Shown here piece by piece: positions 54,504-57,097 of a stretch of 64,000 nt of DNA. The notes under the pieces were generated by a model that worked only from the letters and a program-made list of their open reading frames with translations, did not search any database and was not told the DNA's origin. The DNA is from Schauerella fraxinea (lineage in GTDB: Bacteria > Pseudomonadota > Gammaproteobacteria > Burkholderiales > Burkholderiaceae_B), in NCBI GenBank assembly GCA_030849965.1, contig JAVDKL010000001.1, positions 2,214,554-2,278,553 of the forward strand. The letters run 5' to 3'. The position numbers and the translations under genes were made by a program. Positions within the stretch are counted from its first letter, which is position 1, and each line of letters opens with the position of its first letter.

Positions 54504-55262
54504 ATGACGACCGACAACCGACTGCACACCTCTCTTCATTCGCTGACTGACGCGCTACCCGCATCCTGGCGCGAGGCGCTGAGCGCGCCGCCCATCAAGC
54601 AGGCGCTCGCGCAGGTGGCCGAGTATGTGGACGCCCGGGTCGAGAGTGGAGCCACGGTATATCCCGCCACGCCCTATCGCGCCTTGACCACGATCGCACC
54701 TGAAGACGTGCGCGTGGTGATCCTTGGGCAGGATCCCTATCACGGCCCGGGCCAGGCACAAGGCCTGGCCTTCTCGGTGCCCGACGATTGCCGCCGGCCG
54801 CCGAGCCTGCGCAACATCTTCAAGGAAATTGCGCGCGAGTACCCGGACGCGCCGGTCTCGCCGGCCAACGACCTGGCGTCGTGGGCAGCGCAAGGGGTGC
54901 TGCTATTGAATACATCGCTCACGGTTGAAGACGGGCAGCCCGCGTCGCATGCCAAGCGCGGGTGGGAAATCATCACCGACGCGTTGATTGCCGACGTTGC
55001 CCGTCAACCCGGTGCACGCGTCTTCATGCTATGGGGTGCGCATGCTCAGGCGAAACGTGCATTGCTTAGCCCGCGCGACGACAGATTGGTGCTGTGCGCC
55101 AATCATCCCTCGCCGTTGTCGGCCATGCGCCCGCCGGTGCCTTTCCTGGGCTGTGGACACTTCACCCAGGCGAACATGTGGCTGGAAAACCACGGCCGCC
55201 CCCCTGTGAACTGGGCCTCACCGCATACCGGGGTAGCCAGGCAAGGCACTTTTGGGGTATGA
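54504..55262 (+). CDS. ung: Uracil-DNA glycosylase
   Basis: 252 residues from ATG 54504 (in-frame TTG 54477 is an alternative; neither has a clear ribosome binding site). Removes uracil from DNA. Motif A GQDPYHGPGQAQGLAFSV with catalytic Asp, LLLNTSLTV, and motif B HPSPLSAMR with catalytic His. Divergent from the sensor kinase. Confidence 0.96.
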   Translation: MTTDNRLHTSLHSLTDALPASWREALSAPPIKQALAQVAEYVDARVESGATVYPATPYRALTTIAPEDVRVVILGQDPYHGPGQAQGLAFSVPDDCRRPPSLRNIFKEIAREYPDAPVSPANDLASWAAQGVLLLNTSLTVEDGQPASHAKRGWEIITDALIADVARQPGARVFMLWGAHAQAKRALLSPRDDRLVLCANHPSPLSAMRPPVPFLGCGHFTQANMWLENHGRPPVNWASPHTGVARQGTFGV

Positions 55263-55534
55263 TTCTCGCACTGCACAAACCAACGACTCGGCATAGGCCT
55301 CTGTAAGCGGAGACCAACACGCAGTTTTCGGGCTATTTCATGTGACCAACACATGCCCGTTCAGATGCCGAGCGTCATCGATTCCTGACCTCCTTTCCTT
55401 TCGCACCGCACTCCCCTTGTGGAATGCATGACGCGCACGGTTGATTCGGTCGGCACGATGCTCCGTCAACCGTCGCCCGTCTCGGCTAGAAGCCTTGCGG
55501 CGGCATGGTCGCTTTTCGCGGCCGAAGGAAAGTC
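55263..55534 (+). promoter_or_regulatory. Long structured leader of the DEAD-box helicase gene
   Basis: A -10-like TATGAT (55259-55264) overlaps the ung stop codon, giving a leader of about 265 bases. Perfect long-range stem CTCGGCAT (55287-55294) with ATGCCGAG (55365-55372) encloses two hairpins: 55296-55315 and CATGTG/CACATG (55339-55355). A second stem ACGGTTGA/TCAACCGT spans 55437-55473. A third pairs CCTT and CGGC (55493-55501) with GCCG and AAGG (55521-55528), burying the AAGG ribosome binding site. This looks like an RNA-based control element; family unknown. Confidence 0.55.
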
Positions 55535-57097
55535 ATGTCTTTTCAAGACCTGGGCTTGTCGCCCAAACTGTTGTCCGCGCTGGCTGATGCTGGCTTCACG
55601 ACCCCCACTTCCGTTCAAGTTGCCGCGATCCCGAAAGCGCTCGCCGGCAGCGATTTGATGGTTTCGGCGCAAACCGGTAGCGGCAAGACCGCAGCCTTCA
55701 TGTTGCCCGCCCTGAACCGTATTGCCGAGAACGCCGACCGTGGCGTTGGCGTCCAAGTGCTGGTGTTGACCCCGACGCGCGAACTCGCGATGCAGGTCAC
55801 CGACGCCACGATCGCCTACGGCAAGAACCTGTCCGATCTGCGCACCGCCACCATCGTCGGCGGCATGCCTTACGGCGCCCAATTGAAAGCCCTGTCGCGT
55901 CGCATCGACGTGCTGGTCGCTACCCCGGGCCGTCTGCTCGATCACCTGCAAGCCGGCCGCGTCAAGCTGTCGACCGTGCATACGTTGGTGCTCGACGAAG
56001 CCGACCGCATGCTCGACATGGGCTTCATCGAAGACATCGAAACGATCGTCGGCCGTTTGCCGAAAGAACGTCAAACGCTGCTGTTCTCGGCCACGCTCGA
56101 TGGCAACATCGCCAAGCTGGGCGCTACGCTGATGAACAATCCTGAGCGTCTCGAACTGGCCGGCCAGAAAGAGAAGCACAGCAACATCACGCAAAGCCTG
56201 TACTACGCGGACGACCTCAGCCACAAGCTGCAGTTGCTCGACCACGTGCTGCGCGATGCCGCACTCGATCAAGCCATCGTTTTCACGTCGACCAAGCGCG
56301 GCGCTGACGATCTGGCGGATCGCCTGTCGGAACAAGGCTTCTCGGCTGCCGCTTTGCACGGTGACATGAACCAGCGCCAACGTACCCGTACGTTGACGAT
56401 GCTCCAACGCGGTGCTTTGAAGATTCTGGTCGCCACCGACGTTGCCGCTCGCGGTATCGACGTGCAAGGCATCAGCCACGCCGTGAACTTCGACCTGCCG
56501 ATGCAAGCCGAAGATTACGTGCACCGTATCGGCCGTACCGGCCGCGCCGGTCGCAGCGGTCTGGCGTTCACGCTGGCCACGCACTCGGAACGTCACAAGA
56601 TTCGCCGCATCGAAAGCTTTACCGGCCAAACGATCGACTCCCAAACGATTCCGGGTCTTGAGCCGAAGCGCTCAGCCCGTCCGTCGAGCGATCGTCCGGG
56701 CGGCAAGCCCTTCAACAAGCGCAGCGGCCCGAGCCGTGGCGGTTTCGGCGGCGGTCGTCCGGCATTCGGCGGTAACGGCGGCGGCTACGAAGGCCGTGGC
56801 AAGCCGGCGGCGCGTCCGTCTTTCAACGCTCGCCCTGAAGGCGCTGGCGGCGGTTACCGTGGCGATCGTCCCGAAGGCGGTTCGCGTCCGGAACGTAGCG
56901 AAGGTTTCCGCGCCGAGCGCAGCGAAGGCTTCCGTGCCGATGCACCGCGTCCGAGCTTTGGTTTCCGCGGCGACAGCGACCGTCCTGCCCGTCCCCACGG
57001 TGCAGCACCGGCCGGCGCCCCCCGTGGTCCGAAGCCCGCATTCGGCAAGCGTGACGGCGCTCCCGCCAAGCGCTTCGGCAAGCCGGCTCTCGCCTAA
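55535..57097 (+). CDS. DEAD-box RNA helicase, RhlE-like, with Arg/Gly-rich tail
   Basis: 520 residues from ATG 55535 (AAGGAAAG upstream). Q motif in FTTPTSVQVAAIP, AQTGSGKT (I), PTRELAMQ (Ia), DEADRMLD (II), SATLDGN (III), and HRIGRTGRAGRSG (VI) are all present in about 370 residues. The last 130 residues are Gly/Arg/Pro-rich with repeats of SEGFRAER-like and GGGYRGDRPEGG-like units, suited to RNA binding. Role in rRNA or mRNA remodelling, often cold-related. Its long structured leader suggests RNA-level control. Confidence 0.95.
   Translation: MSFQDLGLSPKLLSALADAGFTTPTSVQVAAIPKALAGSDLMVSAQTGSGKTAAFMLPALNRIAENADRGVGVQVLVLTPTRELAMQVTDATIAYGKNLSDLRTATIVGGMPYGAQLKALSRRIDVLVATPGRLLDHLQAGRVKLSTVHTLVLDEADRMLDMGFIEDIETIVGRLPKERQTLLFSATLDGNIAKLGATLMNNPERLELAGQKEKHSNITQSLYYADDLSHKLQLLDHVLRDAALDQAIVFTSTKRGADDLADRLSEQGFSAAALHGDMNQRQRTRTLTMLQRGALKILVATDVAARGIDVQGISHAVNFDLPMQAEDYVHRIGRTGRAGRSGLAFTLATHSERHKIRRIESFTGQTIDSQTIPGLEPKRSARPSSDRPGGKPFNKRSGPSRGGFGGGRPAFGGNGGGYEGRGKPAARPSFNARPEGAGGGYRGDRPEGGSRPERSEGFRAERSEGFRADAPRPSFGFRGDSDRPARPHGAAPAGAPRGPKPAFGKRDGAPAKRFGKPALA

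Follow-up and report, generated by a model that had tools for sequence, protein, structure and literature searches.

A conserved structured leader RNA preceding the genes of one DEAD-box RNA helicase clade in Alcaligenaceae and other bacteria

The window considered here, a stretch of 64,000 nucleotides analyzed as a whole, belongs to the 5.4-Mb genome of Schauerella fraxinea (Alcaligenaceae). An open reading frame ending at position 55262, which reads from its sequence as a uracil-DNA glycosylase gene, is followed by a leader (approximately 55270 to 55534) and, directly 3′ of the leader, by the ATG (55535) of a gene for a CsdA/RhlE-like DEAD-box RNA helicase (Table 1). Three more DEAD-box paralogues were found in the same genome at the search depth used. 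A second in-frame ATG is located at 55505, upstream of the likely true helicase start, and automated gene calling may set the start too far upstream, within the leader. A promoter scan of the leader gave a single promoter-like match, which ends in the TATGAT that the first-pass annotation had pointed out as a -10-like hexamer. Of 73 Alcaligenaceae leaders, 46 have kept a -10 hexamer followed by ACTGC, where transcription presumably starts, which, as far as sequence evidence goes, puts the start at approximately 55270 and not near 55500, a position that the same annotation had regarded as incompatible with its reading. A standard scan detected no terminator in the window.

Table 1. Features of the helicase leader and its gene, in window coordinates
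Feature	Position	Strand	Basis
-10 hexamer TATGAT of the presumed promoter	55258-55263	+	Consensus scan; conserved in relatives
ACTGCA, presumed transcription start	55270-55275	+	Conserved; may pair with GCAGT 55321-55325 (helix PA)
P0 5′ arm CTCGGCAT (first stem of the first-pass annotation)	55287-55294	+	Pairs with 55365-55372; covaries
Inner hairpin H1	55296-55315	+	Predicted; hairpin here covaries in relatives
Inner hairpin H2	55329-55359	+	Predicted; hairpins of different sequence at the same place in relatives
P0 3′ arm ATGCCGAG	55365-55372	+	Perfect 8-bp stem with 55287-55294
Box A CATCGATTCCTGACC	55376-55390	+	Nearly invariant across families; can pair with box B
Anti-SD CTTTCCTT	55393-55400	+	SD pairing probability mean 0.94; co-evolves with the SD in Alcaligenaceae
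P3 spacer hairpin	55403-55427	+	Predicted in the window; spacer fold z in relatives
P1 5′ arm CGGTTGA (second stem of the first-pass annotation)	55438-55444	+	Pairs with 55466-55472; probability 0.90-0.97
Box B GGTCGGCACGATG, inside the P1 loop	55448-55460	+	Nearly invariant; long-range partner of box A
P1 3′ arm TCAACCG	55466-55472	+	Pairs with 55438-55444
Ribosome-binding site AAGGAAAG (SD)	55525-55532	+	5′ of ATG 55535; 1-2% unpaired at 37 °C, nested model
DEAD-box RNA helicase gene (CsdA/RhlE-like)	55535-57097	+	Sequence and NCBIfam matches, none at cut-off; clade from tree

Comparison of the related leaders revealed a core architecture that starts with the 5′ stem P0, followed by box A (CATCGnTnnCTGACC), then the hairpin P3, which is variable, and finally box B (GGTYRGC(R)nCGATG). 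Over a long distance, box A can form a helix with box B. The two boxes are the most conserved part of the leader and were overlooked in the first-pass annotation. The window carries box A and then box B, mutually complementary and with a spacer hairpin between them, and it scores 59.1 bits (E 4.6e-13) against the structure-aware model R3, whose seed includes it. Across the alignment, 98.9% of the box A/box B cells are paired (98.3% in shuffled alignments and at most 62% in slid controls), a figure obtained after the alignment had been fitted to the model; in an alignment not fitted to it, 98.3% are paired. Most box A/box B columns are invariant, and direct covariation support consists of a few compensated changes, namely C-G to A-U (L244), C-G to U-A (L056) and TGACC/GGTCG to CAACC/GGTTG (L289). 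Nested folding of the window gives this pairing a probability of zero because it crosses both P1 and the anti-SD/SD helix (the order along the RNA being box A, anti-SD, box B, SD), and nested models cannot show pseudoknots. For P3, the spacers of 94 leaders gave a mean z of -1.14 in a statistic that ignores relatedness. Two further elements were rejected as candidates: a universal box-B hairpin (GUURGC/GCYRRY), which did no better than shuffles, and an extra pair between the base after CATCG and the base before CGATG, which was inconsistent.

The 5′ domain is closed by P0, which the first-pass annotation had described as a perfect long-range stem enclosing two inner hairpins, and this description holds in the window. 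The domain (55280-55375) folds better than shuffles (z = -3.05), the pairing probability of P0 in the full-leader ensemble is 0.89-0.99, and both inner hairpins, H1 and H2, are predicted. In the Alcaligenaceae alignment, 79.9% of the P0 cells are paired and both-side changes occur across genera in seven of the nine pairs; double-changed cells number 29, compared with 10.0 in shuffles (reached in 0 of 500); one pair is G-C in 21 species and A-U in 16, with no exception. The outer two pairs are formed by a minority of leaders only. H1 covaries as well (17 double-changed cells against 4.8). The covariance check proposed in the first-pass annotation was carried out in this way and returned compensatory changes in P0, in H1 and between box A and box B. 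Outside Alcaligenaceae, P0 is usually a hairpin ending 0-8 bases 5′ of box A; its mean score is 7.2, compared with 4.1 in shuffles, and it is built from many unrelated stem sequences. At the presumed transcript start, ACTGCA is nearly invariant within Alcaligenaceae and its complement GCAGT is found in 43 of 46 leaders, against 7% expected by chance. The two may form helix PA, which would cross P0 and give the 5′ end a crossing helix as well. No covariation was seen for PA in Alcaligenaceae leaders because both of its arms hardly vary.

Downstream of the 5′ domain, the second stem of the first-pass annotation (P1) is present in the window and recurs in most relatives; it is conserved in most Alcaligenaceae and missing from some compact or reduced leaders (L244, L246). 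A third stem (55493-55501 with 55521-55528) had been proposed as the partner of the ribosome-binding site. The two segments are complementary with one bulged base, yet their pairing probability in the full leader is 0, the region 55485-55540 folds no better than chance (z = +0.56) and no counterpart was seen in relatives. This stem was rejected as the partner of the SD in favor of the anti-SD, which begins two bases 3′ of box A and forms 8 bp with the SD. In Alcaligenaceae, anti-SD and SD match their own partners better than swapped ones (5.43 vs 4.99 ± 0.09, the swaps keeping shared ancestry), as in the pairs TTCCATT/AATGGAA (L005) and CCTTTTGCCG/CGGCAAAAGG (L219), and co-evolution and folding together support the predicted sequestration of the SD by a conserved helix in this family. 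As the signal is absent outside Alcaligenaceae (4.12 vs 4.12), this output stage is not universal. Three Alcaligenaceae leaders (L244, L245 and L238) are very short, with the SD almost directly after box B and an anti-SD/SD match of up to 8-10 bp; they are natural minimal leaders that would be good for experiments. The linkers of L244, among the shortest leaders, are only one and about three bases long, so that the box A/box B and anti-SD/SD helices can hardly coexist, and we infer competition between them there. In the window, the two helices could coexist.

Searches with the covariance model R1, which contains only the second stem (P1), found the element in 197 of 269 Alcaligenaceae genomes and 35 of 43 genera, normally in one copy per genome. 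DNA comparison showed that the region from 55365 onward is conserved in other genera, most of all 55439-55471. The element is kept in Alcaligenaceae genomes of 0.8 Mb (L243, L246), and its retention in such strongly reduced genomes suggests strong selection. One genus, g2 (G002, G093-G101), gave no match in any of its ten genomes with R1 or in the three tested with R3, which suggests natural loss or strong divergence. Weak matches from a further Burkholderiales family and from one other genome proved real, with the same boxes, other hairpins and a DEAD-box helicase gene downstream. The pattern CATCGNTNNCTGACC-N35-65-GGTYNGCNN(0-2)CGATG matched 36 of 399 Burkholderiales genomes (the window included), compared with none for the reversed pattern, and all 88 element loci of an early set lie upstream of a DEAD-box helicase gene. 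A wider pattern scan was directed at 84,980 species, each represented by a single genome. Among the matches listed are Gallionellaceae, Sulfuriferula, Novimethylophilus and Chitinimonas, the Gammaproteobacteria Sulfuricaulis and Plasticicumulans, and Desulfobacterota (Syntrophobacteraceae, Desulforhabdus and Desulfuromonadales). A helicase motif lies within 1 kb downstream in 101 of the 118 matches listed (117 from the scan and L104). The remaining 17 mostly look like chance hits in genes; at least four (L135, L182, L185, L202) carry all parts of the element but show no helicase motif nearby, and two of these lie near the end of the available sequence. The model R3 added divergent members in further Burkholderiales families, in one more gammaproteobacterial family and in Alcaligenaceae genera that R1 had missed. 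At the phylum level, the sequence-only model R2 gave one real new member (L257); its other matches were rejected as chance partial matches, mostly within genes. Order-level matches in family f12, apparently inside genes with no helicase nearby, were also rejected. By these searches, the element is present in hundreds of bacteria of several groups, ahead of the same kind of helicase; beyond Alcaligenaceae they include numerous Burkholderiales families, some Gammaproteobacteria, Desulfobacterota and a few others.

The relationship between element and helicase was investigated with a tree of 42 element-bearing helicases, two own-genome paralogues and RhlE, DeaD and SrmB of E. coli. The element-bearing helicases form one side of a branch with support 92/84, measured against these five outsiders only. 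The element was not found in the leaders of the own-genome paralogues or in those of E. coli rhlE, deaD and srmB. The element is almost always located immediately upstream of genes from a single DEAD-box helicase clade, and the simplest reading would be one old element inherited along with its helicase. L183, from a bin labelled Nitrospirota, carries the element, and its helicase groups with Gammaproteobacteria, a placement indicating that transfer or mis-binning occurs too.

Regarding known RNA classes, comparison of the window with Rfam 15 at gathering thresholds returned only tRNA and nothing in the leader; 13 of its relatives had no match either, nor did the leader at E up to 5. These results agree with the first-pass annotation, which had recognized no known class, and its proposal of a structured regulatory leader gains support from the covariation and the near-exclusive link to one helicase clade. 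The element is undescribed in the motif surveys PMC2864571, PMC6429828 and PMC8632094 (the last of which mentions a helicase for hflX only) and in the results of literature searches, a scope to which the 224-motif survey (10.1093/nar/gkx699) does not belong. The leader is rated as a new class of RNA within a general kind already known, that of autogenous or cold-regulated leaders, although an earlier description of it may exist, and genome annotation gains an apparently undescribed RNA class. DEAD-box helicases have central roles in assembling ribosomes, in mRNA decay and in growth at low temperature, and the control of their amounts in bacteria is poorly known. A compact leader tied to one helicase clade shows which bases matter and which species to compare, and it offers a handle on whether a helicase regulates itself through the RNA that it unwinds.

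The leader is practically certain to be a structured RNA, and from its conservation and position it very probably acts in post-transcriptional control of the helicase gene, whose product amount it probably sets. The existence of the conserved RNA is well supported, and we infer its trigger and direction as follows. The RNA would have two competing states. In the closed state, the SD would be covered by the anti-SD and translation would be off; in the open state, the box A/box B fold would form and pull the anti-SD off the SD. The helicase would unwind the long-range core, and plentiful helicase would let the RNA drop into the closed state. When the helicase is titrated by cold or by the demand of ribosome assembly, the core would persist and more helicase would be made, the net outcome being negative feedback with cold induction. 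In families beyond Alcaligenaceae, the core is kept and the output stage would differ. A conserved cis-acting regulatory RNA that works as a two-state switch with helicase feedback is the best explanation of the whole, and we hold it with middling confidence. On whether the helicase itself feeds back on the leader, a proposal made by analogy, the balance is even; the direction described, from plentiful helicase to the closed state, is put forward tentatively. A wider reading, in which the core is an ancient sensor of unwinding capacity, is possible though doubtful: the core would be the substrate of the encoded helicase, the mRNA would measure free helicase activity and set its own translation accordingly, and the device would have been passed down together with a single helicase clade through both Pseudomonadota and Desulfobacterota.

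Precedents for such control come from two directions. The 5′ UTR of Caulobacter crescentus rhlE is structured and 186 nt long, and it is linked to post-transcriptional cold induction (PMC5472812). It resembles the present leader as a long structured DEAD-box helicase leader, and by this precedent autoregulation or a cold switch is plausible here. Unlike the present case, no sequence element was described for it and its regulation is not tied to a defined RNA structure. In a Caulobacter helicase null, expression was higher, a possible sign of self-regulation, but the null also raised a fusion without the UTR (PMC5472812), which counts against this precedent for leader-mediated feedback. RNase E (rne) is autoregulated through its 5′ UTR by a decay-based mechanism, according to work cited in PMC5874925. 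By analogy, both cases would concern an enzyme of RNA metabolism that senses its own level by way of its leader; the gene and the RNA are different here, and the decay-based mechanism is that of rne.

Several other explanations must be weighed against the switch with helicase feedback. The conservation of box A and box B exceeds what pairing requires, so another factor could bind the boxes and report on RNA metabolism or the state of ribosome assembly; candidates are a ribosomal protein, some other RNA-binding protein, an sRNA and a small ligand. Pseudoknotted translational leaders bound by ribosomal proteins are known from E. coli rpsO (S15) and the alpha operon (S4), and they share with the present leader, where it is predicted from sequence, a long-range pseudoknot beside the ribosome-binding site, the gene product being an RNA-binding protein. 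In contrast to those leaders, the present one precedes no ribosomal-protein gene and has no rRNA-like binding site that could be found. Speaking against such a factor, the element is confined to the genes of this helicase clade and is not seen ahead of ribosomal-protein or metabolic genes. Comparison of the boxes with 16S and 23S rRNA of E. coli rrnB gave chance-level similarity in 19 of 20 cases and one weak antisense match, and an rRNA-mimic leader was rejected. For a riboswitch, the gene context suggests no metabolite. Binding of another factor is on the whole unlikely.

A pure RNA temperature switch, in which temperature alone would toggle the leader between open and closed without helicase feedback, is likewise unlikely. 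Cold induction is frequent among DEAD-box helicases, the SD sits in a helix, and the Caulobacter rhlE translational fusion is cold-induced (PMC5472812). However, in a nested model without pseudoknots the SD of the window stays closed throughout 10 to 42 °C (0.1% to 2.4% unpaired) and is slightly more closed in the cold, a simple thermometer has no need of strongly conserved box letters, and no Rfam thermometer family matches. Leaders of the cspA type and RNA thermometers have in common with the present leader a structured leader, a cold-linked gene class and an SD in a helix; they differ from it in that the present leader has no Rfam match, a strongly conserved core and no modelled temperature crossover.

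It is improbable that the element instead governs stability or attenuation, either by shielding the mRNA from RNases or exposing it to them, or by early termination in some families. In 66% of the leaders outside Alcaligenaceae, compared with 28% of shuffles, a terminator-like hairpin lies between box B and the helicase start, and mRNA stabilization based on the UTR was suggested by the Caulobacter authors (PMC5472812). Against this stand the lack of a scanned terminator in the window and the co-evolution of the SD itself with the anti-SD in Alcaligenaceae. Control of the helicase through translation of a short leader peptide is very improbable and largely refuted by codon pattern and distribution: a 7-codon reading frame whose stop is the TGA of box A is present in 46 Alcaligenaceae leaders, but changes fall mostly at codon positions 1 and 2 with hardly any at position 3, the frame is interrupted in L003 and absent outside Alcaligenaceae, and the same letters make the covarying P0 stem.

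The leaders outside Alcaligenaceae often show further features at their two ends. A TGCGCGTTTT-like stretch is often found 5′ of the SD. Immediately 5′ of P0, many promoters (L089-L095, L105, L111 and similar loci) have the form TATAATGCGCGCC, with a G+C-rich stretch 3′ of the -10; such a stretch after the -10 is a feature of growth-rate-controlled promoters.
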